This document shows, one piece after another, positions 43,314 to 56,816 of a stretch of DNA of 64,000 bases. Numbering within the stretch: position 1 is the first letter of the stretch; each line of letters starts with the position of its first letter. The notes beneath the pieces are model-generated. The model was given only the letters and a program-made list of their open reading frames with translations, was not told where the DNA came from and made no database searches. Source of the DNA: Spartobacteria bacterium LR76 (GTDB lineage Bacteria > Verrucomicrobiota > Verrucomicrobiia > Chthoniobacterales > Terrimicrobiaceae). Position numbers and translations under genes: made by a program. The stretch spans positions 310,001-374,000 of the forward strand of contig QAYZ01000015.1 in NCBI GenBank assembly GCA_003054655.1, read 5' to 3'.

Positions 43314-44498
43314 TCATTCGCGAACAACGGCGCAGGAGGCATTGGTGTCGCGATAATCAGAAGGGCTCCGACCGCGATATTGGCGAAAGGTGCGGTAAAA
43401 CTTCCGTGGATTGTCAAATCCCGCCCGGGCGGCAATGTCGGAGACACTCAACCCCGTCTGGGAAAGCAACTGCTCGGCAAAACGCATGCGAGCCAGTTGA
43501 ATCTCGCGGTGGATGGTCGAGCCAAGTTTGTTCTGAAAGAGACGCTCGGCCGAGCGGCGGGCCATCTTCATAAAACGGCATACCTCGGAGACATCCAGCC
43601 CCTCCTTGCCAACATTTTCCTGAATGTGGCGCAGGGCATTCTGCAGCTCGGACTCCAGGGTGGATCGGAATCCGGTGGATTCCCGCGCCACCACACTCCC
43701 GGGCGGCAGGAAGACGGAGGACACGCGCGAGACTTTCCCCCGCATCAACCGATCCAGCATCTCGGCCGCCTGCCACCCGATCAGGTGAGCGGGGATTTCG
43801 ATACTGGAGAGCGGCGGCGAGGTGAGGCGGCATTCATACGGGTCGTTGTCCACGCCGAGGATGGCGACATCCTCAGGCACACGGAGGCCGGAAAGGCGGC
43901 AGATCTGGCAAAGCGTGCGGGCCGGGATGTCGTTCGAGGCCAGCACGGCGGCGGGCTTGGGAAGCTGGCGCAGCCACTCGGCGGCGCGCTTTTCCATGGC
44001 CGACCAGTCCTCGGTGATCGGGGTGCGCGGAAGAAACCGTGCGTGACAACTGGAGAGCTGGAACCCCTTCGCCAGCAATGCCCGCCGAAAGCCATCCTCC
44101 CGCCTTCGGGAAAAGGCTGCCGCCCGGCTGCCGAAGTAGCCGAACGAGCGATACCCGAGGGACAGAAAATAACCAGCCGCCTCCTCGCCCACCTTCTCGT
44201 GATCCACATCGACCACAGGGATCTCCACGTCATCCAGGGTATGCGTGATCGAGACGACGCGACCCGGCAGACTGACCAGCCTCTCCGCCAGCGTACGGTC
44301 GGAAAGGTGGGCAATGATTCCATGGGGCTTCCACCGCTTCAGCAACGGAAAGACCCGCGCATCGGGCGGAGCCTCGTGGTAAATCCATTCCGGGCGGCGT
44401 TCCTCGGCATAGGAAAGAATCCCGGACAGCACATCGCGGCAATATCCGAGATCCTGCCCGAGCAGGAGTGCAACCCGGAGTGTCGTGAAATGACTCAT
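43314..44498 (-). CDS. XylR-like regulator (sugar-binding + AraC HTH)
   Basis: A 394-residue regulator of the XylR type, with a LacI-like sugar-binding domain N-terminal (about 10-280) and an AraC HTH C-terminal (about 300-385). The binding domain begins [21 protein letters not shown] and contains [21 protein letters not shown] and [23 protein letters not shown], both typical. The HTH contains [22 protein letters not shown] and [27 protein letters not shown]. The ATG at 44498 (MSHFTTLRV) is preferred over the upstream one. It is divergent from the FGGY kinase by 55 bp and probably controls it in response to a pentose or uronate. Confidence 0.92.
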
Positions 44499-44553
44499 AA
44501 ATGTCGCAAAATGGTATTTCAGGCCCAATGCATCTTCCATCAAAATCCTGGCA

Positions 44554-46209
44554 ATGAGTTATCTCCTCGGCATCGATGTCGGCACGGGAAGCGCCAGGGC
44601 CGGACTGTTCACCACGAAAGGCGCGCTGGTCGCCCATCATAGCCGGGAGATTCGGCTCTGGAGGCCGGAACCGGGATTCGTCGAGCAGTCCACCGAGAAC
44701 ATCTGGGCCGCCATCACCGAGTGCGTGCGAGAGGTTGTCCGGGCCTCCGGGGCGCGACCCGATGAGATTCTCGGCCTGGGTTTTGACGCCACCTGCTCGC
44801 TTGTCGCAGTGGATGAAAACGGGCAACCGGTTTCCGTAGCCCGCGATGGCAAGGCTGAGCGCAACGTCATCGTTTGGATGGATCATCGCGCGCTGGCGGA
44901 AACCGAGGAAGTCAACAGCCTGCCCGGCCATCCGGTCTACGATTATGTCGGCGGCCGGATTTCCCCGGAGATGCAGACTCCGAAGCTGCTCTGGCTGAAG
45001 CGCAATCTGCCCGACACCTGGAAACGCACGGCGCATTTCTTCGACCTGCCGGATTATCTCACCTACCGGGCGACGGGAGCCACGACCCGCTCCATCTGCT
45101 CGATGACATGCAAGTGGACCTATCTCGCCCATGAAAAGGCCGAAGGGCGCAGCGGCTGGAGCGACACGTTTTTTAAAGGTGTCGGACTCGGCGACCTCGT
45201 GACGGAGGGATATGCCCGCATCGGCACCAACGTCCAGCCCATGGGGTCGCCCATCGAGGGCGGACTCAGCGAGCAGGCGGCGGCGGTACTTGGCTTGCTG
45301 CCGGGAACGCCTGTAGGCGTCTCCATCATCGACGCCCACGCCGGAGGCCTCGGCACGATCGGGATGCAGCTTCCGGGAGCAGGCGATACAGACTTCGACA
45401 CCCGGCTGGCTCTCATCGGCGGCACATCCTCGTGCCACATGGTGGTGTCCCGATCCGGGCGGCGGATTCCCGGCGTGTGGGGACCGTACTGGTCATCCAT
45501 GGTGCCGGGCTTCTGGCTCAACGAAGGCGGACAGTCGGCAACAGGCGCCCTGGTCGACCACGTAATTTCCAACCATGGCGCAGCGGCGGAGGCCCGGGAG
45601 GCCGCGAAAGGTCAGGGAATCTCCATTTATGAATTTCTCAATGCCCGGCTGAGTGCGCTGGCGGAGACTGCCGATGTCGCCAGCTTGACGACCGAGCTTC
45701 ACGTCTGCCCGTACTTCCACGGAAACCGCTCTCCTCGGGCAAATCCCAGCCTGGTCGGAATGATCTCCGGATTGCACCTTTCCGCCAGCATCGACGACCT
45801 CGCCTTGCTTTATCTCGCGACGATCCAGGCCATCGCCTACGGCACCCGCCATATCATCGAGGCGATGAACTCCGCCGGCTACCGTATTGACACCCTCCTC
45901 TGCTGCGGAGGCGGCACGAAGAATCCCGTCTTCCTCCAGCAGCACGCCGACGCCACGGGCTGCCGCATCGTTCTTCCACAGGAACCCGAGGCGGTTCTGC
46001 TGGGAGCAGCAATGCTGGGAGCCGTCGCATCCGGAAAGGCCGCGACCATTGAGGAGGCGATGGCCTCCATGTCGGGGCCGGGACGAATCATCGAGCCAAA
46101 CCGGCAGACCCGCGCCTACCACGACGCCAAATACCGCGTCTTTCATCGTCTGTACGATGACCAGATCGCGTATCGCGAGCTGATGAACGAAAGCCATTCC
46201 AGGCATTAG
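44554..46209 (+). CDS. FGGY-family pentulose kinase
   Basis: A 551-residue sugar kinase that phosphorylates a pentulose, probably D-ribulose or L-ribulose. The N-terminal phosphate-binding motif is [19 protein letters not shown] follows near residue 109, and [11 protein letters not shown] plus GGTSSCHM are spelled as in the 5C carbohydrate kinase (FGGY/YDR109c-like) group. The C-terminal ATP motif is [19 protein letters not shown]. The combination suits the D-ribulokinase-like branch better than classic AraB. Its regulator is the divergent XylR-like gene; no isomerase or epimerase is adjacent. Confidence 0.88.
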
Positions 46210-46295: not shown

Positions 46296-47648
46296 ATGGG
46301 CGCTGTTGACGCTATCAAGCAGGATTTGTTGGCCAAAGGGGTGAAGTATTGCATCGGAGCCTACGTGGACATCCACGGGGTGCCGAAGGGCAAGGTCGTC
46401 CCCATTTCGCATTTCGAGGACTTTGCGGCAGGATCGGAACTCTATACGGGATACGCTCTCGACGGTCTCGGCCAGAGTCCGAACGACGATGAAATCGCCT
46501 CCGTGCCAGACCTTGAGCGGGGCATTCAACTGCCCTGGCAAAAGGAGGTCGCGTGGTTCCCGGCAGACAACACCTATCACGGTGAACCCTATCTGCTGAA
46601 CACCCGCACCCTATTGAAAAAGGTACTCGCTGACGCAGCGGCCAAGGGGTGGAAATTCAACCTCGGCATCGAGTGCGAGGTGTACTTCCTCAAGCTCACG
46701 GACGAGGGCGGACTCGCGGTGGAGAATCCCGACGACAACCTGATGAAGCCCTGCTACGACGTGAAGCGATTCCTCGACAGCTATGGCCTCATTGATGAGA
46801 TCGCGAGCACGATCGAGGAACTCGGCTGGGGGCTGTATTCGTTTGATCACGAGGACGGGAACGGGCAGTTCGAGTTCGATTTCGAGTACTCGGACGCGCT
46901 CACGATGTGCGACCGCTATGTTTTCTTCCGCTATATGGCGAAGAAGATCGCCGCAAAGTACGGCCTCATCGCGACCTTCATGCCCAAGCCCTTCGCCGAC
47001 AAGACCGGAAACGGGGCGCACTTCAACATGTCGCTCGCCGACATCGAAACCGGTGCAAATCTTTTCAAGCAGGCCGACCGCAGCGATCCGCATGGCCTCG
47101 GCCTTTCGACACTCGGCTATCACTACACCGCAGGCATCCTGAAGCATGGCCGAGCGCTCTGCGCCGCGTGGGCGCCGACGGTGAACAGCTACAAGCGACT
47201 CGTCCGGCGGGGCCTGATGGGCTACTACTCGTGGGCTCCGGTATTCAACTCCTTCGGCACGAACAACCGGACCAACTCCGTGCGCATCCCGATGGCGGGC
47301 GGCCGGGTGGAATCCCGCAATGCCGACTCCGCCTGCAATCCCTATCTCGCCGCCGCGCTCGCGCTCGCCGCAGGAATGGAGGGCATCGAGGGTCAGCTCG
47401 ATCCCGGCGCTCCGCGGTCGGAGAATCTCTACGCCTACAGCGACGAACAGCTCGCCGGGATCGGCGTGCAGTCGCTGCCCCGCTCGCTCGGTGAGGCTAT
47501 CGACGCCTTTGCGGGAGATCCCTTCATCACGCAGGTGCTCGGCCAGGAACTGCGCGACGAATTCATCAAGTACAAATCCGCTGAATGGGAGGAGTACAAC
47601 CTCACCATCTCGCCATGGGAGATCAAGAAATACGCCCGACTGTATTGA
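46296..47648 (+). CDS. GlnT/GMAS-type glutamine synthetase-like ligase
   Basis: ATP-dependent ligase of the glutamine synthetase fold, 450 residues, joining ammonia or an amine to glutamate. The N-terminus reads [21 protein letters not shown], which is like the GlnT/gamma-glutamylmethylamide synthetase clade rather than GlnA. Metal-site elements include [10 protein letters not shown], and [26 protein letters not shown] and [11 protein letters not shown] are further catalytic blocks. ATG 46296 is preferred over the upstream TTG and GTG. It is the first of seven tightly spaced genes, which supports assimilation of nitrogen released or imported by the rest. It could ligate ammonia or a primary amine. 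Confidence 0.9.
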
Positions 47649-47675
47649 CAACTTCCGAGCGGGGAGCCCGGTAAG

Positions 47676-48512
47676 ATGACCGGACTCCTCAGCCCGCGAC
47701 GCCCGATACCGCGGCCCTTTTACTGGGCTTCCGCGGTACTGGGCTTCGTCGTCCTGTTATGCGTCTGGGAGTGGGCGGCGGGTTACTACGCGGCGCAGGG
47801 AAAGCAGGTACTCTTCCCCTCGCCCGCCGCCGTCGGGCAGGTGATGCAAAACATGGTGCGCGGCGCGACCACCGGGCAGGAACCAGCCGCCCGCGAGTTT
47901 CAGAATTTCGCCGCCGACCTGCGGATCAGCTTTTTCCGCGTCACCGCCGCCTTTGCCCTGGCTGCGCTGACCGCGATTCCGCTCGGGGTCATGATTGGCT
48001 CGTACCGGATGGGAGAGGCCTTCATCCAGCCGGTGACGGAATTCATCCGTTACATCCCTGTCCCGGCGCTCATCCCCCTGCTGATCGTGATCTTCGGGAT
48101 CGAGGAAACCTCGAAGATCATGCTGATCTATCTCGGCACCTTCTTTCAGCTCATGCTCATGGTCTCCGACGAAATCCGGCGCGTGCCTTACGATCTGGTG
48201 CAGGCGGTTTACACCATGGGCGGTACGCGGCGCGAGGCCGTGACGGAGGTGCTGCTGCCCGCCTCCTGGCCCGGCATCGTGGACGCACTGCGGCTGTGCA
48301 ATGGCTGGGCCTGGTCGTGGCTCATCGTGGCGGAACTCGTCGCGGCCAATGAGGGCATGGGCTTCCGCATCGTGAAGTACCAGCGGTTCCTCCAGACGGA
48401 CAAAATCTTCTTCTACCTCGTCGCGCTCGGAGTCATCGGGCTGCTGCTCGACCTCGCCTTCCGCCTCTTCAGCAAGATCGCGTTCCGCTGGAACGTCGCC
48501 GCCCGCAACTGA
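47676..48512 (+). CDS. SsuC/TauC-type ABC permease
   Basis: A 278-residue inner-membrane permease with about six TM segments. The EAA loop is YTMGGTRREAVTEVLLPASWPGI, spelled as in nitrate/sulfonate/taurine transporters. The hydrophobic segments at about 18-36, 90-110 and 140-155 flank EFIRYIPVPALIPLLIVIFG, a family hallmark. It is 27 bp after the GlnT-like gene and 2 bp before its ATPase. Confidence 0.93.
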   Translation: MTGLLSPRRPIPRPFYWASAVLGFVVLLCVWEWAAGYYAAQGKQVLFPSPAAVGQVMQNMVRGATTGQEPAAREFQNFAADLRISFFRVTAAFALAALTAIPLGVMIGSYRMGEAFIQPVTEFIRYIPVPALIPLLIVIFGIEETSKIMLIYLGTFFQLMLMVSDEIRRVPYDLVQAVYTMGGTRREAVTEVLLPASWPGIVDALRLCNGWAWSWLIVAELVAANEGMGFRIVKYQRFLQTDKIFFYLVALGVIGLLLDLAFRLFSKIAFRWNVAARN

Positions 48513-48514
48513 CC

Positions 48515-49396
48515 ATGGCGCTGGAACTTTCCCATATCACCAAGACCTTCCGCTCCGGCGGCGCGGAGGTGTGCGCCCTGCAGGATTGCACCTTTACCGT
48601 GAACGACGGCGAGTTTGTCTCGCTCATCGGGCCGTCGGGCTGTGGGAAATCGACGCTGCTCTACATCGCCGCCGGCCTGGAGGAGGCCACCTCGGGAAGC
48701 GTGATGCTGGACGACTGCGACTTGAGCGGGCCGGGCAAGGATCGCGGGATGGTTTTCCAAAACTACACGCTCTACCCATGGCTCACGGTGGAGCAGAACA
48801 TCAAGTTCCCCTTCCGCCTCAAGGCCAACACGGATTACGCCCGCCCGAGCGCCGCCATCATGAGCGACGTCGAATACGCCGGGCATCTGCTGGAGATCAT
48901 GGGACTCGCCCAGTTCCGCCACCGCTACCCGCGTGAACTCTCCGGCGGCATGAAGCAACGCGTCGCCATCGCACGCGCCTTGACCAACAAGCCGCGCATC
49001 CTCCTGATGGACGAGCCCTTCGGCGCGCTCGACGCCCAGACCCGCGAGGAACTCCAGGAGTTGATGCTGCTCCTCGGCCTTTACGAGAAAACCACCACGC
49101 TGCTCGTCACGCATGACATCGAGGAGGCCATCTATCTCGCCGACCGCATCGTGGTCCTTTCCGCCCGACCGGGCCGCATCCTCGAGGAAATCAAAGTCCC
49201 CTTCCCCAAGGACCGCCTCCTCGACATCAAGCTCACACCGGAGTTTCTCGCACTCAAGCGCCAGCTCGTCGATCTGCTCCACGCAGGAGGTCGCTCCTCC
49301 TCCGGCCGGGCCGAAATCCTCGAGCGCCTCGGCCAGCATTTCCACGCCACGACCGGCTCACCGGTCACCACCACGACAAACCAGCAACAACCATGA
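48515..49396 (+). CDS. SsuB/TauB-type ABC ATPase
   Basis: A 293-residue ATPase for the importer. Walker A is GPSGCGKST (39-47), the Q-loop is in MVFQNYTLYPWLTV, the signature is LSGGMKQRVAIARA (142-155), Walker B is LLMDEPFGALDAQTR, and the switch His is in LLVTHDIEEAIYLADR. This is the NrtD/SsuB/TauB pattern. The C-terminus has a longer Ser/Thr-rich tail. Its stop overlaps the next start as ATGA (49393-49396). Confidence 0.95.
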   Translation: MALELSHITKTFRSGGAEVCALQDCTFTVNDGEFVSLIGPSGCGKSTLLYIAAGLEEATSGSVMLDDCDLSGPGKDRGMVFQNYTLYPWLTVEQNIKFPFRLKANTDYARPSAAIMSDVEYAGHLLEIMGLAQFRHRYPRELSGGMKQRVAIARALTNKPRILLMDEPFGALDAQTREELQELMLLLGLYEKTTTLLVTHDIEEAIYLADRIVVLSARPGRILEEIKVPFPKDRLLDIKLTPEFLALKRQLVDLLHAGGRSSSGRAEILERLGQHFHATTGSPVTTTTNQQQP

Positions 49397-50346
49397 AACA
49401 CACCATGAAAGCCATCGCCGCACTCCTGGTCGCGGCCCTTACCGGATCGGCTCACGCCGCCGAAACCAAGCCCCTGAAGGTCGGATACAACAACTGGGTT
49501 GGATTCATCGCCTTCTTCGTCGCCCAGGATAAAGGGTATTTCAAACAGGCCGGGCTCGACGTGCAGCCCAAGGTCTTCAGCGCGCCGGGCGAGGGTCTTG
49601 TGCCGCTGATCTCGGGCGATCTCGACATTCATCTCTCGACGGTCGACGCCGCGATCCTGCGCTCCGCCAATGCGCCGGGTTCTCTCAAAGTCGTCGCGCT
49701 CGTCGACACCTCGGCGGGTGCCGATGCCGTGCTTGGAGGCCCGGCGGTGAAGACGCCTGCCGACCTGAAGGGCAAAAAAATCGCCGTGACCTTGGGCGAA
49801 TGCAACGAGGTGCTCCTGCAAAAGGCCCTGCAAGCCGGCGGCCTGACCGAAAAGGACGTGACCCTCGTCAACATGGACCCGGACGCCGCCGGCACCGCCC
49901 TTAAGGCCGGAAACGTCGAGGCTGCCGTGACCTGGGAGCCGTGGATCAGCCAGCTCGTCGGAGCAGGAAATGCCAATGCCGTCTTCACCTCGAAACAGGC
50001 ACCAAACGTGCTTACCGATTGCGTGGTCATCAGCGCACAGGGTGAAAAAGCCAAGAAGGCGGAAATCGCCGCGTTCCTCGCCGCCATGAACAAGGCCACG
50101 GAATTCGTCAAGGCACACCCCGATGAAGCCGCCGCCATCGCAGGCAAGGCGCTGGAGGTTCCTGCCGAGGACATCAAGGGCATGCTTGGCAAGGTCACGC
50201 TCTACGATCTGGCCACCAGCTCCGCCCAGATGAAGGGCGAGGCCGCAAAAAGCGCGGATGAACTGCTCCTCTTCTTCAAAAACAAGGGTTCCGTCGACAA
50301 GGACGCCACCGTGGCTGGCCTGCTGGCTCCCGACTTCGCCAAATAG
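49393..50346 (+). CDS. ABC substrate-binding protein (SsuA/NMT1 type)
   Basis: A 317-residue periplasmic binding protein with signal peptide MKHTMKAIAALLVAALTGSAHA. The mature N-terminus LKVGYNNWVGFIAFFVAQDKGYFKQAGLDVQ is the hallmark start of NitT/TauT-type proteins, and DLDIHLSTVDAAIL and AVTWEPWISQLV follow. Ligands in this family are aromatic or small nitrogen and sulfur compounds; here the operon suggests a nitrogen compound. ATGA overlap with the ATPase. Confidence 0.94.
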   Translation: MKHTMKAIAALLVAALTGSAHAAETKPLKVGYNNWVGFIAFFVAQDKGYFKQAGLDVQPKVFSAPGEGLVPLISGDLDIHLSTVDAAILRSANAPGSLKVVALVDTSAGADAVLGGPAVKTPADLKGKKIAVTLGECNEVLLQKALQAGGLTEKDVTLVNMDPDAAGTALKAGNVEAAVTWEPWISQLVGAGNANAVFTSKQAPNVLTDCVVISAQGEKAKKAEIAAFLAAMNKATEFVKAHPDEAAAIAGKALEVPAEDIKGMLGKVTLYDLATSSAQMKGEAAKSADELLLFFKNKGSVDKDATVAGLLAPDFAK

Positions 50347-50353
50347 ACAGACC

Positions 50354-50983
50354 ATGAACGACTTCGGCCTTTTGATGATCGACTTCCAGAGGGACTTCTG
50401 CGCCCGGGGTGGCTACAGCGACCTCTGCGGGGGACTGGACTGGGTGCTGCCTATTTTGCCCAATGCCGTCCGCCTTCTGGAAGCGGCGCGAGAGGCCGGA
50501 GCGTTCATTGTTCACACCCGCGAAGGCTACGCGCCCGACCTGTCGGATTGCCCGCCCGTGCGGGTGGAGCGTTCGCGCAAGGCAGGCGGAGAGTACGGCA
50601 GCCAGGGGCCTCTTGGTCGCCTGATGATTCGCGGGGAATACGGACACGACTTCGTAGACGAACTCCAGCCGCTACCCGGCGAAACGGTGCTGGATAAAAA
50701 TACGTACGGGGCTTTTGCCAAATCCCACCTTGAGACCCTGCTTAAGGAAAACGGCGTGCGCCGGCTCGCCATCGCGGGCGTGACCGCCGATGTGTGCGTG
50801 CATACCACTTTGCGAGAAGCGGCAGACCGGGGGTTCGACTGCTACTACGTTCGCGACGCCATTTCGACTTTCGACCCGGAGATCCGCCGCGCCTGTGAAA
50901 TGATGGTGAATCAGGAGGGCGGCATCTGGGGGCAGCTCGTCACCGTTGAGGAAATCGTCTCGCTTTGGAGGGCGGCGCGATGA
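50354..50983 (+). CDS. Isochorismatase-family amidohydrolase, biuret hydrolase-like
   Basis: A 209-residue cysteine hydrolase. The catalytic triad is visible: Asp10 (LLMIDFQRDFC), Lys115 (VLDKNTYGAF), and Cys148 (AGVTADVCVHTTLREA). HTREGYAPDL, and the block GPLGRLMIRGEYGHDFVDELQPLPGE, follow the pattern I recall for biuret hydrolase and ureidoacrylate hydrolase, rather than nicotinamidase. It probably cleaves an amide or ureide. It lies 7 bp after the binding protein and overlaps the deacetylase-like gene by ATGA. Confidence 0.9.
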   Translation: MNDFGLLMIDFQRDFCARGGYSDLCGGLDWVLPILPNAVRLLEAAREAGAFIVHTREGYAPDLSDCPPVRVERSRKAGGEYGSQGPLGRLMIRGEYGHDFVDELQPLPGETVLDKNTYGAFAKSHLETLLKENGVRRLAIAGVTADVCVHTTLREAADRGFDCYYVRDAISTFDPEIRRACEMMVNQEGGIWGQLVTVEEIVSLWRAAR

Positions 50984-51846
50984 GCGCGTTTTCCCCGCCA
51001 CCGCGATTCACCTGGCCGGGTGGAGCCAAGGTCGCCGTCATGCTATGTTTCGATGTCGATGGCGAAACGACTGCCTTGGAACACGACCCCGCCCTGGCCA
51101 AGCGCCTGACCACCATGTCGCAATGCGAGTATGGCCCGACCGTGGGTGTGCCGCGTTTGCTCGGTCTTCTCGATCATTGCCAGGTGCCCGCCACGTTTTT
51201 TATCCCGGGGTACATCGCCGAGCACCACCCGGAGATGACTCACGCGGTGCAGGCCGCCGGGCACGAGATCGGCCTGCATGGCTATCTGCATGAGCGGCTG
51301 ATCACGCTCAACGAAACCCAGGAGGAGGCGATCCTGCAAAAGAGCTTCACCATCCTGGAGGATCTCACCGGCACGCGTCCTGTCGGGTATCGCGCGCCGT
51401 GGTTTGAACTGAACCCCTGGACGCCCTCGGTCCTGCAGCGCAACGGCGTCTTCTATGTCGCCAGCGCCATGGGTGATGATGTGCCCTACCGCCATCACAA
51501 CGGCCTCATCGAAATCCCCGGCCAGTGGATGCTGGAGGATTGGGAGCAGTTTGCCTTCAATGCCGATCCGGCGTGGGGCTCGATCCCGGAGAATTGCGAC
51601 AAGGTCTTCGATCTCTGGTGGAAGGAATTTGAGGCCATGTACGATTTCGGCTGCTGCTTTGTACTCACCCTCCATCCATGGCTATCAGGCCGCCCGTCGC
51701 GGGTTCGGCTGCTGGAAAGGCTGATCAATGCCATGAAGGCCAAGCCCGGCGTGTGGTTTGCGCGCGGCGCGGAGATCGCCCGCTGGTACGACCAGACGCC
51801 GGACGCCCGGCGGGAGGTTGATTTCGACCGACTCGCGGGTAAATAG
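50980..51846 (+). CDS. NodB/PuuE-like deacetylase, possible cyclic-imide hydrolase
   Basis: A 288-residue cytoplasmic protein of the polysaccharide-deacetylase fold with no signal peptide. The metal-binding motif is CFDVDGET (Asp25, Asp27), followed by HEIGLHGYLHE (His95, His100, His104), the RAPWFEL motif (138-144) and LTLHPWLSGRPSR near the C-terminus. This wording is closest to the PuuE-allantoinase and cyclic-imidase-like subgroup, not secreted chitin or peptidoglycan deacetylases. Ring opening of an imide or ureide is the inferred reaction. It starts at ATG 50980 in an ATGA overlap and is 8 bp before the LuxR gene. Confidence 0.88.
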   Translation: MSAFSPPPRFTWPGGAKVAVMLCFDVDGETTALEHDPALAKRLTTMSQCEYGPTVGVPRLLGLLDHCQVPATFFIPGYIAEHHPEMTHAVQAAGHEIGLHGYLHERLITLNETQEEAILQKSFTILEDLTGTRPVGYRAPWFELNPWTPSVLQRNGVFYVASAMGDDVPYRHHNGLIEIPGQWMLEDWEQFAFNADPAWGSIPENCDKVFDLWWKEFEAMYDFGCCFVLTLHPWLSGRPSRVRLLERLINAMKAKPGVWFARGAEIARWYDQTPDARREVDFDRLAGK

Positions 51847-51854
51847 GATATCGC

Positions 51855-52898
51855 ATGGGTAACGCACTCAAGGTGGTCGATCCGGGAGAGATTCCCGTCG
51901 CGCCAGCCAGACCCCGGGGCCGACCGGCCGAGGAACTGGCCCGGGCCTGCGTTGCCCTGCAAACCCTCGGCATCCGTGACCGCGAGATGTACTCGCTCCT
52001 GTTTCGCAAGACGCTGGAGGAAAATCCGGATTTCTTCGGCGTGTGGAGCGTGTGGGAACCCGACGCGCTGGACGGCCAGGATGCGAAGTTTCGCAACGCC
52101 CCAGGCCATGACCAGTCGGGGCGCTTCGTACCGTTCTGGAACCGCAGCGGCGGCGAGGTACGGCTCGATCCCGTGACCGGCTACGAATACCCGGGGCCGG
52201 GGAACTGGTACTGGGTCTCGACCAGCCAGAAGCAACTCTGCGTGATGGACCCGTACATGTATCCCGTGGCGGGAAAACGGCTGCTCCTCACCAGCCAGAT
52301 CGCTCCGGTCGTGATGGACGGCCAGTGCCTCGGCATCACCGGCGTGGATATTTCCGTCGAGTGGTTCGTCGAGCACACGATGAAGAGCAAGGCGGGCGCC
52401 TCGCTGCCGGAAACCAATCTCTACGAGGAGCTCATGGAACGTGGGCTGGTCTTTCTCAATAAGCGAGGTGAGGTTCGTTACTGGACGCAGAAAACCCGCG
52501 AACTCCTCGCGCGTTACCTCCCCGAGCCAGAGCGCCTCCTGCCACGCGAGGTTCTCAAGGCGGTCAACGCCAGCACGGGCGCGGGCCCTGTGCAGATTCA
52601 TTTCCGTCATTGTTACTCGGAGCTGTCGGTTACAATCATTCCCCTTCGCTCCGAGGCGCTGGTGGTGGCGGCGGAGACATCCTATTCCCCCTGCGATCGC
52701 GCCTGCACCCTGACCGCGCGGGAACGCGAGGTTCACCACTGGCTCTCGCAGGGCAAGTCAAACGAGCAGATCGCGCAAATCCTCGGCATCAGCGTGCACA
52801 CGGTGAAAAACCACCTCGACCACATCTTTGAAAAGCTCGGCGTCGACAATCGCGTGGCCGCCGCCATGGCCTGCATCGACCGCCCCGCCGCTGCCTAG
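51855..52898 (+). CDS. Soluble Cache-domain LuxR regulator
   Basis: A 347-residue one-component regulator. The N-terminus has no signal peptide or TM segment. Residues about 30-175 are Cache/PDC-like: GNWYWVSTSQKQLCVMDPYMYPVAGKRLLLTSQIAP and LGITGVDIS; the WY, Tyr and GVD(I) landmarks are those of dCache sensors. The C-terminal HTH reads CTLTAREREVHHWLSQGKSNEQIAQILGISVHTVKNHLDHIFEKLGV, a textbook LuxR domain. It is the last gene of the nitrogen operon and probably senses the substrate or product directly in the cytoplasm. Confidence 0.92.
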   Translation: MGNALKVVDPGEIPVAPARPRGRPAEELARACVALQTLGIRDREMYSLLFRKTLEENPDFFGVWSVWEPDALDGQDAKFRNAPGHDQSGRFVPFWNRSGGEVRLDPVTGYEYPGPGNWYWVSTSQKQLCVMDPYMYPVAGKRLLLTSQIAPVVMDGQCLGITGVDISVEWFVEHTMKSKAGASLPETNLYEELMERGLVFLNKRGEVRYWTQKTRELLARYLPEPERLLPREVLKAVNASTGAGPVQIHFRHCYSELSVTIIPLRSEALVVAAETSYSPCDRACTLTAREREVHHWLSQGKSNEQIAQILGISVHTVKNHLDHIFEKLGVDNRVAAAMACIDRPAAA

Positions 52899-52969
52899 AT
52901 TCCGTCTCGGAGTTCAAGCCACTTGCACAAAAGCCCAAGTTGGGGCAGTCTCCGGGACTTCTGGAAGCC

Positions 52970-53593
52970 ATGAAATCCCTGCTGATCAAACTTTTCACCT
53001 CCGCGACTGCAGTCGCTCTCCTTTTCGGCCTGAGCGCCTGCGAAACGACTTCGCTGGGCCGCAAGAACTCCTTTGATTTCGATCCGCCGCTCACCCAGCC
53101 GAAGAATCCCGCCAAGGTGAAGCTCTTCCTGAGCACCGGAGCGCAGCGACTCTATGTCGTCGAGGGTGACAAGGTTCTCCTCGCCACTCCCGTCACCGTG
53201 GGCGCGCCGTCCAGCCCCACCCCGCTCGGCAACTACACCATCTACTCCAAGGTCGAAAACCGCCGCCGCGTGAGCAGCCCGGATTCCGGCTACCCGATGA
53301 CATTCTGGATGGAGTTCAAGTCCGCCTACGGCCTCCACTGGGGTTTTGTCAAACCGTACCCCGCCACTCACGGCTGTGTACGCATGCCCATCGACTCGGC
53401 TCGCAAGGTCTTCTCGGTCGTCCGCGTCGGCACCCCGATCAACATCGCCAAGAGCCAGCCCTGGGATGCCACCATCGGCAAAACCCTGCCCGTGCTCGAC
53501 GACGGTCCACTCCCGAATCCTCCGAAGTCGTATCTCCTGAGTCCCGAGGTGTTCCAGGATGCGAAGAAGGGCCGGATGTGGCAGTGGGATTAA
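52970..53593 (+). CDS. L,D-transpeptidase lipoprotein (YkuD)
   Basis: A 207-residue cell-wall enzyme. It begins MKSLLIKLFTSATAVALLFGLSACETT, a lipobox with Cys24. The YkuD domain (about 48-155) ends with the catalytic motif ATHGCVRMP (His134, Cys136, Arg138). Such enzymes form 3-3 crosslinks or attach proteins to peptidoglycan. The ATG at 52970 is preferred. A strong rho-independent terminator follows. Confidence 0.95.
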   Translation: MKSLLIKLFTSATAVALLFGLSACETTSLGRKNSFDFDPPLTQPKNPAKVKLFLSTGAQRLYVVEGDKVLLATPVTVGAPSSPTPLGNYTIYSKVENRRRVSSPDSGYPMTFWMEFKSAYGLHWGFVKPYPATHGCVRMPIDSARKVFSVVRVGTPINIAKSQPWDATIGKTLPVLDDGPLPNPPKSYLLSPEVFQDAKKGRMWQWD

Positions 53594-53688: not shown

Positions 53689-53778
53689 ACAAAAGAGGAT
53701 CAGGCTCCATCCGCCCTGGAATCCGCAAGTGATGCGCAAAGTGGATAGTTTTGCCCGTTCCTTATGGTAAGTCGCCCT

Positions 53779-53796
53779 GCCCGTTATTTTACGGGC
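53779..53796 (+). promoter_or_regulatory. 6-bp stem-loop in sulfatase 2 leader
   Basis: GCCCGT pairs with ACGGGC around a TATTTT loop, 20 bp upstream of the ATG. An alternative TCGCCC/GGGCGA pairing overlaps. Small and without a tail; possible mRNA-level control. Confidence 0.35.
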
Positions 53797-53816
53797 GATA
53801 CACCACGGGTTTCTCG

Positions 53817-55223
53817 ATGCGCATATTTCTCTCTTTAACCGTCTGGGCCTTACTTTCCGTCATCACGCTTCGTGCGGAGGACAAGCCAAATATCATCTAC
53901 ATCGTAGCCGACGATATCGGCTGGAAGGATGTCGGCTTCCAGGGGGCAAAGGACATCCTGACTCCCAACATCGACAAGCTGGCCTCCCAGGCGGCCAGGC
54001 TCGACCAGTTCTACGTTCAGCCCATGTGTACGCCCACGCGCGCGGCCCTGATGACCGGGCGCTATCCGATGCGCTACGGTCTGCAGACGCTCGTCGTTCC
54101 CAGCAAGGGCACCTACGGACTGGCCAAGGACGAGTATCTCCTCCCGCAGGTGCTCAAGGATGCGGGCTACGACACTGCCATGGTGGGCAAGTGGCACCTC
54201 GGACATGCCGAGGCCGCCTACTGGCCCAGGCAGCGCGGGTTTGATTACTTCTACGGGGCTGTGCTCGGCGAGATCGACTACTTCACCCGCGAAGCCCACG
54301 GGGTGCTCGACTGGCAGCGAAACAACAAGGCCGTGAAGGAAAAAGGTTATGTCACCGAACTGCTCGGCGACGACGCAGTAAAAGTGATCGACGAGCACAA
54401 CACGAAGAACCCGCTCTTCCTCTACCTCGCCTTCACCGCACCTCACGCGCCCTATCAGGCGCCGCAGAAGTACATCGACCGGTTTCCCAATATCCCCAAC
54501 GAAACCCGCCGCATCTACGCCGGGATGATCTCCTGCATGGACGACCAGGTGGGCCGCGTCGTCGCCGCGCTGAAGGAAAAGGGAATGCTGGAAAACTCCA
54601 TCATCGTCTTTCATAGCGACAACGGCGGTACAACCGACGCACGCCTCACCGGAGAGAGCAAGGTCAAGGAACTCCCCTGCGACAACAGTCCGCTCCGCGG
54701 AGGAAAGGGCGGCCTCTATGAAGGAGGCACTCGCGTGCCGGCGTTCATCTTCTGGCCGGGCCACGTCGCGGCAGGCGAGTTGAACAATCTCTATCATGTC
54801 ACCGACATGCTGCCGACGCTCGCCGCCCTCGGCGGAGGCTCGACCGCAAAGTGCAAGCCGCTCGACGGTTCCGATGTCTCCGCGTCCCTGACGGGCATGA
54901 CTCCATCGCCGCGCTCCGAGGTGGTCTACAACATCGAGCCCTTCCGCGCGGCCATCCGAGAGGGTGGCTGGAAGCTCGTCTGGCGCACCGTACTCCCGAC
55001 CAAGGTGGAACTCTTCAACCTCAAGACGGACCCGAACGAAACCACCAATGTCGCCGCGGAAAATCCGCAGGTCGTCCAGGAACTCCAGGCCCGCATCGGA
55101 AAGCTGTCCACGGAGGCGGCCAAGCCCCTCTTCTTCGGCACTGCGCTGGACGCCGTGATGGCCGGGGCCTTCGGGTCCGCAACCATCCCGGTCGAAGACG
55201 AAGCCGTACCCCAAGAGCCATGA
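53817..55223 (+). CDS. Secreted formylglycine sulfatase
   Basis: A 468-residue sulfatase with signal peptide MRIFLSLTVWALLSVITLRA. The metal motif is IYIVADDIGW (Asp32, Asp33), the activation motif is CTPTRAALMTG with Cys71 to be converted to formylglycine, and TAMVGKWHLG and SDNGG follow. Length matches family S1 glycan or aryl sulfatases. The ATG at 53817 is chosen because the upstream frame lacks a signal. The stop overlaps the barrel gene's ATG as ATGA, so the two proteins are translationally coupled. Confidence 0.95.
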   Translation: MRIFLSLTVWALLSVITLRAEDKPNIIYIVADDIGWKDVGFQGAKDILTPNIDKLASQAARLDQFYVQPMCTPTRAALMTGRYPMRYGLQTLVVPSKGTYGLAKDEYLLPQVLKDAGYDTAMVGKWHLGHAEAAYWPRQRGFDYFYGAVLGEIDYFTREAHGVLDWQRNNKAVKEKGYVTELLGDDAVKVIDEHNTKNPLFLYLAFTAPHAPYQAPQKYIDRFPNIPNETRRIYAGMISCMDDQVGRVVAALKEKGMLENSIIVFHSDNGGTTDARLTGESKVKELPCDNSPLRGGKGGLYEGGTRVPAFIFWPGHVAAGELNNLYHVTDMLPTLAALGGGSTAKCKPLDGSDVSASLTGMTPSPRSEVVYNIEPFRAAIREGGWKLVWRTVLPTKVELFNLKTDPNETTNVAAENPQVVQELQARIGKLSTEAAKPLFFGTALDAVMAGAFGSATIPVEDEAVPQEP

Positions 55224-56128
55224 TTCCTCATCGTTCCTGCCTCCTCGCCGCCGCCCTTGCTTTATCGCTCGCCTCGAGCGCGCTGGCCGGGGACAAGTCA
55301 ACACCCGCGCCGGAGCCCGCCCCGGTTCCGAGCAGTTGGTTCGCGGACAATGTGCTGCGGCCCAGGACACCCTTTGAGGTCGTGCCGGGCAAGGACCCGA
55401 ATGGCTGGAGCTTCCGGCTGGAGCCGTATCTCTGGAGTCCCGGCGTCTACGGCACGGTCGGCATCGGAGACCTTCCCCAGATGGGGGTGAACTCCAGCCC
55501 GATCGATGTGCTGAAGCAACTGGATTGGGGCATTTTCATGCAGGCCGAGATTCGCAAGGGTCGGTGGGGCATCGCCGCGGATGGATTCTTTGCCCAGTTC
55601 TCCGCCGACCTCGCGCCGTCGGGTCCGATCTACAAGAGCGCCAGCGCGCAGCTCCAGCAGAGTATTGACTCGTTCATCCTGGCCTACCGCGCGATTGACG
55701 CCCGGAACTTCTTCGTCGATGCCTACGCCGGAGCCCGCGTCTATTACATGGGCCTCGATATCACTGCGGAGGTGAACGACAACCGCGCCACCCGCATCGC
55801 TCAGGCCATCGGCCAGCGGGTCGCCCCGGAGAAGTCCTTCCCCACCTCCGCCGACGCCGACCGCTGGTGGGCTGATCCAGTCCTCGGACTGCGCTTCCGC
55901 GTCAATGTCACCCGCGTACTGTTCCTCACCGGTCAGGCCGACGTGGGCGGATTCGGCGCGGGCTCCGACATCTCGTTCTTCACCCAGGGTTCCGCCGGGG
56001 TAAACATCACCCGCAACATCTCCCTGGAGGCGGGCTACCGGTACATGTATGTGGATTACAACAAGGACAACTTCCTGTTCCGCATGAACATGCCCGGTAT
56101 CTACGCCGGGATGGGCTTCACCTTCTAG
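55220..56128 (+). CDS. Outer-membrane beta-barrel, paralogue of 17341-18654
   Basis: A 302-residue exported protein starting MIPHRSCLLAAALALSLASSALAG. It shares PFEVVPGKDPNGWSF (51-65), QADVGGFGAGS (239-249) and YRYMYVDY (273-280) with the larger barrel at 17341-18654 and also ends in Phe, a usual BAM signal. The loop at 181-213 is only about 33 residues here, against about 159 there. Coupled by ATGA to a sulfatase, so the pair may form an uptake or display module for a sulfated substrate. It shares a CTAG stop overlap with the Ser/Thr-rich gene. Confidence 0.85.
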   Translation: MIPHRSCLLAAALALSLASSALAGDKSTPAPEPAPVPSSWFADNVLRPRTPFEVVPGKDPNGWSFRLEPYLWSPGVYGTVGIGDLPQMGVNSSPIDVLKQLDWGIFMQAEIRKGRWGIAADGFFAQFSADLAPSGPIYKSASAQLQQSIDSFILAYRAIDARNFFVDAYAGARVYYMGLDITAEVNDNRATRIAQAIGQRVAPEKSFPTSADADRWWADPVLGLRFRVNVTRVLFLTGQADVGGFGAGSDISFFTQGSAGVNITRNISLEAGYRYMYVDYNKDNFLFRMNMPGIYAGMGFTF

Positions 56129-56742
56129 GGATTCATGCCGCCGGAGGAGTTGCTCTGCGGCACCGGGCTAGGCGAGGCCGTGGGTGCAGGAGTCGGCGAG
56201 ATCGTGTTGGTCGTCCCGGTATTTGCCGAGGGGTTGGCGGAATCGCTCACGCCGCCCGCGGAGGTATTACCCGTTCCAGCGGAGTTGGTCTGAATCGTTC
56301 CGCCCTGGCCATTCTGGTACTGGCTTCCCGTGGTGCGGTTTGTCCCGTTAGCTCCATTTGTCGTGGCATTGTTGGTCGAGGTGACGGTCGAGCCATCGCT
56401 GCGCAACATGCCCGACGTCACGCCGGCCTGATTGCGCATGGGTTCCTGGGATGTTCCCGTCGACGTGCCGGAGCTTTTGGTCTGGCCGGTGTTACCCTGG
56501 CTGCCGGTTTGAGCATTGCCCGTCGTGCTGGAGGTCGAGCGCTGCGAGTTGGTGGACGTGCTGCTGGTGCCCGAGCCGCTCTGAGATGTGTTCCTCTGGC
56601 CTCCGGTGCCAGTCGTTGTACCGCCTGGATTTCCCGTCCCAGCCCCGGAACCCGAGGAACCGGTGGTGCCTGTCTGTGCCATTGCGACCAGGGAGACGAG
56701 CGCGGAAGACACTATGATTGCGAGGAGAGATTTGATCTTCAT
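56125..56742 (-). CDS. Low-complexity Ser/Thr/Gly/Asn-rich secreted protein
   Basis: A 205-residue exported protein: signal peptide MKIKSLLAIIVSSALVSLVAMAQ, then almost only Thr, Ser, Gly, Asn, Gln and a Pro-rich C-terminus (PTPAPTASPSPVPQ). A short normal stretch (PMRNQAGVTSGMLRSDGST) sits in the middle. No cysteine, membrane segment or sorting motif was seen in the mature part. Could be an extracellular matrix or glycosylated stalk protein. It is convergent with the barrel gene and shares its CTAG stop. A hypothetical frame artefact is possible, but the signal peptide argues for a real gene. Confidence 0.68.
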   Translation of the reverse strand: MKIKSLLAIIVSSALVSLVAMAQTGTTGSSGSGAGTGNPGGTTTGTGGQRNTSQSGSGTSSTSTNSQRSTSSTTGNAQTGSQGNTGQTKSSGTSTGTSQEPMRNQAGVTSGMLRSDGSTVTSTNNATTNGANGTNRTTGSQYQNGQGGTIQTNSAGTGNTSAGGVSDSANPSANTGTTNTISPTPAPTASPSPVPQSNSSGGMNP

Positions 56743-56816
56743 GCAGGGGGATCGCCCCTCACGAACCCCCCGCGCCTCAGCCCCGGCACTGAGCAAAGGC
56801 TCCGGTAAAAACGGAA

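Follow-up and report, generated by a model that had tools for sequence, protein, structure and literature searches.

Two adjoining hydrolase genes in a predicted nitrogen-scavenging operon of a Spartobacteria bacterium may act on guanidine compounds

Which reactions are carried out by two hydrolases whose genes overlap by four bases, amid genes for transport and nitrogen assimilation? We addressed this question for ORF1, an isochorismatase-like protein, and ORF2, a NodB-fold protein, both encoded in the window, by which we mean the whole 64,000-nucleotide stretch of Spartobacteria bacterium LR76 DNA that was analysed. A first-pass annotation of this DNA had proposed that the two act as a coupled pair, converting a cyclic imide to a half-amide and then to an acid plus ammonia. 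ORF1 and ORF2 are genes 5 and 6 of a tight seven-gene run at positions 46296-52898, which comprises the following features:

46296..47648, + strand: type III glutamate-ammonia ligase (NCBIfam TIGR03105, 595.9 bits, above the cut-off of 469.6), with a putative role in ammonia capture
47676..48512, + strand: ABC transporter permease, SsuC/TauC type
48515..49396, + strand: ABC transporter ATPase
49393..50346, + strand: substrate-binding protein, NMT1/SsuA type
50354..50983, + strand: ORF1, 209 aa; Pfam Isochorismatase (E = 3.8e-37); triad Asp10/Lys115/Cys148; Tyr118/Glu188, as in the guanylurea-hydrolase group
50980..50983, + strand: ATGA start/stop overlap of ORF1 and ORF2, 4 bases
50980..51846, + strand: ORF2, 288 aa; Pfam Polysacc_deac_1 (E = 3.7e-17); NodB-fold, CE4-like, with Asp25, Asp27, His100, His104, Arg138, Asp187, and His232
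51855..52898, + strand: gene with a PDC-type sensor domain and a LuxR helix-turn-helix, the likely operon regulator

The intergenic gaps along the run are 27, 2, −4, 7, −4, and 8 bases, and the run is predicted to form a single operon. The ATGA overlap reported in the first-pass annotation was read at the ORF1/ORF2 junction, and GGAGG lies directly 5′ of the ORF2 start codon; translational coupling of the two genes via this overlap is likely. In the congeners (n = 2), the junction is a one-base TGATG overlap instead of ATGA. Relative to these two congeners, dN/dS, calculated for five of the seven genes, was 0.018 to 0.034 for ORF1, 0.017 to 0.029 for ORF2, and 0.012 to 0.038 for the other three (glutamine synthetase, binding protein, and regulator). 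ORF1 and ORF2 are thus both under strong purifying selection. Because the pair is kept in all three genus genomes examined, with dN/dS of 0.017 to 0.034, we regard it as more than a chance arrangement. A crude hydropathy scan of the N termini (peak 11-residue value) gave 1.44 for ORF1 and 1.80 for ORF2 versus 2.58 for the operon's binding protein and detected no secretion signal in either hydrolase, in line with the earlier view that both lack signal peptides; both proteins are probably cytoplasmic.

The closest solved relatives of ORF1 (phmmer) were BiuH (6xjm, E = 4.9e-49) and TrtA (6xix, E = 1.8e-45), followed by RutB (E = 2e-20), with maleamate amidohydrolase (3ot4/3uao, E = 9.3e-9) well below all three. 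An AlphaFold model of ORF1, built from an 18-sequence alignment (pLDDT 92.3), returned the same ranking by fold: BiuH and then TrtA were the top matches (TM about 0.9), and the maleamate amidase NicF again fell below BiuH, TrtA, and RutB. By these comparisons, ORF1 is placed in the biuret/triuret/guanylurea-hydrolase group. It shares fold, triad, and about 40% identity with BiuH and TrtA but differs from them in the substrate pocket. In BiuH, biuret is described as held by Lys145 and Gln215; Lys145 variants were inactive, and Gln215Glu raised the KM more than 25-fold (PMC5806882). The TrtA counterparts are given as Lys132 and Gln202 (PMC7948467). The corresponding ORF1 positions are Tyr118 and Glu188, the same residues that occupy the matching positions of the Pseudomonas mendocina MET guanylurea hydrolase. 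A glutamate in place of glutamine opposite a guanidinium group would be chemically sensible; use of the Tyr/Glu pair as a guanylurea-hydrolase diagnostic is a proposal of this analysis. A triuret hydrolase was rejected as an identity for ORF1 on the replacement of both pocket residues, and a maleamate amidohydrolase (NicF) on the gap between E = 9.3e-9 and the 4.9e-49 obtained with BiuH. The same residue changes spoke against a biuret hydrolase, as did the NCBIfam BiuH profile NF050097, which scored 204.8 bits against a cut-off of 370.

Guanylurea hydrolases of the GuuH type convert guanylurea to ammonia and guanidine and were described in wastewater bacteria growing on metformin waste. Among 126 ORF1 homologues drawn from genomes and plasmids, including the window (alignments of <150 query residues and L005/L006, duplicates of L024/L025, were left out), the pocket pair was K/Q in 97 and Y/E in 29, with no mixed pairs, and the Asp10/Lys115/Cys148 triad, called intact in ORF1 by the first-pass annotation, was kept in all 126. 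In a maximum-likelihood tree of these sequences (midpoint-rooted for drawing), all 29 Y/E rows lay on one side of a branch with support of 97/94; the BiuH-consensus and TrtA-consensus sequences each fell in a group of their own, apart from that of ORF1. The Y/E group includes the MET guanylurea hydrolase (BB_00025), which we identified from the strain, the plasmid, and the neighbouring deaminase gene as the cysteine hydrolase of plasmid CP098607; the tree copy (L022, identical to L124) is identical to it. Purified, this enzyme hydrolysed guanylurea at 11 µmol/min/mg and had very low activity on biuret (PMC9800807). Of the two known guanylurea hydrolases considered, the MET enzyme and GuuH of strain GU, our comparison is with the former. 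The MET enzyme and ORF1 share the isochorismatase-like fold, the triad, the Tyr/Glu pair, the tree group, and 51.5% identity, and SsuABC-type importer genes adjoin both. In contrast, where the MET enzyme is partnered by a nucleoside deaminase, ORF1 has a type III glutamine synthetase and a NodB protein as partners, and the window's subclade (7 rows) is separated from the verified guanylurea hydrolase by a long branch (0.95), so its substrate may differ. We consider it fairly likely that ORF1 is a guanylurea-type amidase, with guanylurea or a close analogue as its candidate substrate. The guanylurea-hydrolase group is found in a range of bacteria beyond the metformin-waste wastewater strains, and in the set examined two residues part it cleanly from biuret and triuret hydrolases, which offers annotators a simple test.

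Other branches of the family had contexts of their own. A separate group of 13 hydrolases, mostly from Bacillota (L028, L039, L042, L044, L045, L048, L049, L054, L055, L057, L059, L064, and L068), has His at the position of BiuH Asp173; the L028 hydrolase is neighboured by genes for xanthine permeases, FdrA, DUF1116, and carbamate kinase (purine degradation). The Enterobacter plasmid pENT-576 (IncFII/IncR; L029), from a tracheal-aspirate isolate, carries a biuret/triuret-type operon with atzF, two isochorismatase-like hydrolases, and an ABC transporter. ORF1 homologues were also present in 78 Escherichia plasmid records.

Genes and RNA elements around the Y/E hydrolases point to guanidine. A guanidine-I riboswitch was found at 13 of 25 Y/E loci scanned versus 0 of 20 K/Q loci scanned (Fisher P = 1.2e-4, ignoring shared ancestry and unequal flank length; the scans covered 25 of 28 Y/E and 20 of 72 K/Q loci, and 13 of the 20 K/Q loci had been picked partly for shortness and hence had less flank). 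All 13 riboswitch loci belong to the part of the Y/E group outside the window's subclade, and none was detected at the subclade loci scanned (the window, L024, L025, L031, and L032), a distribution that led us to lower the guanidine reading somewhat. Neighbouring genes were counted by BLAST (E ≤ 1e-30) with the carboxylase, AtzF, and UAAP of L024, the creatininase and hydroxylase of L051, and the binding protein and permease of the window as queries, and each of these three loci therefore matches itself. In these counts, a carboxylase homologue was near 5 of 28 Y/E loci (L024, L034, L052, L053, and L060), a homologue of the window-type binding protein near 16 (two of them congeners), and a creatininase near 12, versus 0 of 72 K/Q loci in each case. 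Within the window's subclade, only L024 had the carboxylase nearby. Allophanate hydrolase did not separate the groups (5 of 28 Y/E versus 17 of 72 K/Q loci). On the evidence of sequence, the Y/E group as a whole appears linked to guanidine.

The creatininase loci form a set in their own right. At L051 (4601-13821), the order is riboswitch, binding protein, desaturase-like hydroxylase, two SDRs, EamA-like protein (assigned by eye), creatininase (377.9 bits versus a cut-off of 235, applied to this locus alone), Y/E hydrolase, metallo-beta-lactamase-superfamily protein, one further protein, permease, and ATPase; most of these neighbours recur in its relatives. A creatininase just 5′ of the Y/E hydrolase was likewise seen at L034, L035, L037, L047, L050, L052, L053, L056, L058, L060, and L099. 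Ten of these 12 loci have a guanidine-I riboswitch in the stretch, usually together with the desaturase-like hydroxylase and two SDRs, and the 12 look like an undescribed guanidine-compound pathway. The literature searched contained no pairing of a guanidine riboswitch with a creatininase, and a wider search gave none on point among the titles of the matches listed.

Among solved proteins, ORF2 best matched 3RXZ (E = 8e-71), followed by HpPgdA (3QBU, E = 5.6e-34) and PuuE relatives (about 1e-26). It keeps all five CE4 active residues, and its best match lies within the NodB1.2 group, of which 3RXZ and 3QBU are described as the sole 2 of 8 proteins with all five residues and as functionally uncharacterized (PMC10967932). 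The metal set named in the first-pass annotation (Asp25, Asp27, His95, His100, and His104) is complete in ORF2 and invariant in a five-sequence alignment. His100 and His104 align to the HpPgdA zinc ligands His86 and His90, and from the motif Asp27 would be the third ligand and Asp25 the base; His95, in contrast, is conserved but has no ligand counterpart in the HpPgdA alignment. ORF2 is probably metal dependent. HpPgdA, like ORF2, has no signal peptide; it is reported as a tetramer with a poorly accessible active site, and no activity was seen with GlcNAc, chitotriose, allantoin, N-acetyl polyamines, or N-acetyl dipeptides (PMC3084791). 3RXZ and HpPgdA differ from ORF2 in lacking its operon, and neither has a substrate settled in vitro. 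PuuE shares the NodB subgroup and exemplifies small-molecule amide hydrolysis; however, PuuE allantoinase is described as not metal dependent (PMC10967932), and its relative 1Z7A has Trp at the position of ORF2 His104. A PuuE identity was rejected for ORF2 because it retains His100 and His104 and scored 100.1 bits with NCBIfam TIGR03212 (PuuE), below the cut-off of 424.6. A secreted glycan deacetylase was lowered as a candidate on the outcome of the hydropathy scan. A single-sequence AlphaFold model of ORF2 (pLDDT 38.5) was too poor for a reading of tetramer or pocket. The most likely identity of ORF2 is a cytoplasmic hydrolase of small molecules from the 3RXZ/HpPgdA group, with an amide-type bond of a guanidine-type precursor as its candidate target, and the protein gives a defined context in which to seek a substrate for that group. 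A scan of viral contigs for ORF2 relatives returned three loci, the best match covering 172 residues at 41%.

To what extent the two genes belong together can be judged from their distribution. The adjacent pair occurred in 3 of 26 family genomes, which are all three genus genomes examined, and nowhere else in the data searched; at E ≤ 1e-40, ORF2 was found in the window's own genome alone among 240 phylum genomes. The nearest ORF1 orthologue outside the genus (74%), on contig L031 of the Terrimicrobiaceae genome G264, lies in a run that keeps the glutamine synthetase, transporter, ORF1, and LuxR regulator, with no ORF2 between ORF1 and the regulator. The ORF2 orthologue of G264 (70%) is on a different contig. 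There, a creatininase-family gene, a gene for a TIM-barrel-like protein (by eye), and an SDR gene precede ORF2, and a NikR-like gene (by eye), two DUF1989-type genes, a carboxylase gene, and an allophanate-hydrolase-like gene follow it in that order. Beyond the genus, 15 plasmid loci and L132 were examined as ORF2-family loci, and none of these 16 carried an ORF1-type gene (E ≤ 1e-8). At E ≤ 1e-20, ORF2 was matched in 4 of 13 searched genomes with a Y/E gene, at 70% in G264 and at 33 to 34% in the other three. SDR genes occurred in 9 of 16 ORF2-family stretches, a count of little weight given how common SDRs are and that the loci were hand-picked without a control. Strict coupling of ORF1 and ORF2 is therefore weak, the adjacent pair being confined to one genus and the G264 orthologues to different contigs, and both genes are tied to guanidine-type nitrogen metabolism by association with neighbours that differ between genera. 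Of the coupled pair proposed earlier, what stands is two hydrolases in one nitrogen operon with plausible release of ammonia; strict coupling is the weak part. We judge the chances of ORF2 acting in the pathway of ORF1 to be evenly balanced, and we find it doubtful that the two form a genuine chain of two steps, one of them ring opening or deacylation.

As a side observation, the NikR-like gene (nickel-responsive, by eye) at L132:11254-11721 lies between the ORF2 orthologue and DUF1989-type genes, which hints at the use of nickel by ORF2 or one of its neighbours.

The host genome also has a gene set of the guanidine type about 160 kb from the ORF1/ORF2 operon. At G000:C13:192368-197199 and just beyond, one run contains an allophanate-hydrolase-related amidase of 427 aa, which matches only about residues 43-444 of the 596-residue query (at 50%), a carboxylase (57% to the G035 carboxylase; 1873.9 bits, above the cut-off), and two DUF1989 proteins with scores above the UAAP1 and UAAP2 cut-offs. 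We take these urea-amidolyase-associated proteins (UAAP) to be carboxyguanidine deiminases. This assignment agrees with the title of one paper that PMC12186494 cites. The distance from the operon, the partial coverage of the query by the amidase, and the NCBIfam name of the carboxylase, urea carboxylase, count against the guanidine reading, under which the carboxylase would use guanidine. The set matches that of the guanidine carboxylase pathway (CgdAB, carboxylase, AtzF); it differs in that it lies outside the window and has no riboswitch found beside it, and its guanidine preference is putative. No guanidine riboswitch was detected in the window or in the stretch with the carboxylase run.

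The same genome has a second cassette outside the window, at L136 (G000:C11:288000-307000). Read mostly by eye, it encodes a PDC-LuxR regulator, a type III glutamine synthetase, a glutamine amidotransferase, a creatininase-family protein (60% to that of G264), and an ABC transporter. It adjoins apparent reductive pyrimidine genes.

Taken together, these results suggest a role for the operon at 46296-52898 in nitrogen scavenging, the source being a ureide or acyl compound with a guanidine group, with ORF1 as a guanylurea-type amidase and ORF2 as an upstream or parallel hydrolase; we hold the case for and against this reading to be roughly equal. The ABC importer would take up the compound. The metal-dependent, NodB-fold ORF2 might then cut one amide-type bond, by ring opening or by deacylation of an acylguanidine-like precursor, and ORF1 would act on guanylurea or a close analogue, freeing ammonia from its terminal carbamoyl group, with Cys148 attacking and Glu188 from the partner subunit facing the guanidinium end. 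The resulting carboxyguanidine or guanidine could pass to the carboxyguanidine-deiminase-type, carboxylase, and allophanate-hydrolase-type enzymes of the genome, and the released ammonia could be fixed by the type III glutamine synthetase. The gene order, the active sites, the group of ORF1, the link of that whole group to guanidine, and the presence of the downstream gene set are read from the sequences themselves; the substrates of ORF1 and ORF2, the order of steps, and the use of guanidine by the carboxylase are what we infer from them. The more specific proposal, that the pair forms a natural route from a cyclic or acylated guanidine compound to guanidine plus ammonia in which ORF2 acts first and ORF1 finishes, is tentative and on balance unlikely. 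On that proposal, the counterpart in Pseudomonadota would be the creatininase, which together with a hydroxylase and SDRs is under the control of a guanidine-I riboswitch. If true, it would give the metal-binding NodB subgroup of ORF2 its first assigned small-molecule substrate and guanylurea hydrolases a natural role predating metformin; natural guanidine compounds suggest themselves as the original substrates of these enzymes.

Several other explanations were weighed against the guanidine reading. ORF2 could be a passenger, joined to the operon in this genus only and acting on another substrate under common regulation. Its restriction to one genus, its singular occurrence among the phylum genomes, and its absence from the related G264 operon all favour this explanation. 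The overlapping start and stop codons, the strong purifying selection, and the presence of the pair in both congeners oppose it, and the ORF2 orthologue of G264 too adjoins a run of the guanidine-degradation type; we regard a passenger as unlikely, though a real contender. NodB-type cyclic imidases exist, and the cyclic imide scheme of the first-pass annotation has in its favour that ORF2 belongs to a NodB subgroup that includes PuuE relatives. Relatives of ORF2 also adjoin amidase genes (an isoaspartyl peptidase/asparaginase with a 4-base overlap at L143 and an amidase at L145), and hydantoinase A/B genes lie near one at L141. The active-site and structure comparison that the annotation had called for, run on ORF1, nonetheless put the protein far nearer to BiuH and TrtA than to maleamate amidohydrolase, and ORF1 carries the Tyr/Glu pocket of a verified guanylurea hydrolase, in a group with links to guanidine riboswitches and to degradation genes of the guanidine type. 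Because the ORF1 pocket, its closest relatives, and these ties disagree with maleamate chemistry, imide opening was set aside as improbable. It is reasonable to redraw the chemistry of the pair around guanidine compounds, keeping the idea of two cytoplasmic hydrolases that release ammonia.

The remaining explanations concern one protein each. That ORF1 is a biuret hydrolase, in an operon that supplies allophanate to allophanate hydrolase, would accord with BiuH and TrtA as its best solved relatives and with the allophanate-hydrolase-like amidase in the genome; given its subthreshold BiuH score, the replacement of both biuret-binding residues, and the very low biuret activity reported for the verified Y/E enzyme (PMC9800807), we think this quite improbable. 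If ORF2 were instead a deacetylase of the cell wall or of glycans, with no relation to ORF1, its NodB fold and five CE4 residues would fit. Earlier work cited in PMC3084791 had HpPgdA acting on crude H. pylori peptidoglycan, with indirect support from a mutant, and an L,D-transpeptidase-domain gene follows the regulator, also in congener L133; these two points raised the explanation slightly. Such a role conflicts with the hydropathy scan, the nitrogen and transport functions of the remaining operon genes, the guanidine-type neighbours of the G264 orthologue, and the inactivity of purified HpPgdA, with its poorly accessible site, on GlcNAc and chitotriose (PMC3084791). We consider it very unlikely, and the first-pass argument against cell-wall deacetylation thus held up, the closest solved relatives being 3RXZ and HpPgdA.

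Outside the operon, the L,D-transpeptidase (YkuD) domain gene lies at 52940-53593 on the strand of the regulator, 41 bases beyond it, and congener L133 keeps both this gene and the next one (53751-55223 in the window). Upstream, positions 43314-46209 encode an FGGY pentulose kinase (score 671.6 bits) as well as a divergent regulator in which LacI-type binding and AraC-type HTH domains are combined; these genes point to sugar metabolism and are probably unrelated to the operon. On the − strand at 56125-56796 lies a low-complexity open frame rich in Ser, Thr, Gly, and Asn, with a possible signal sequence.
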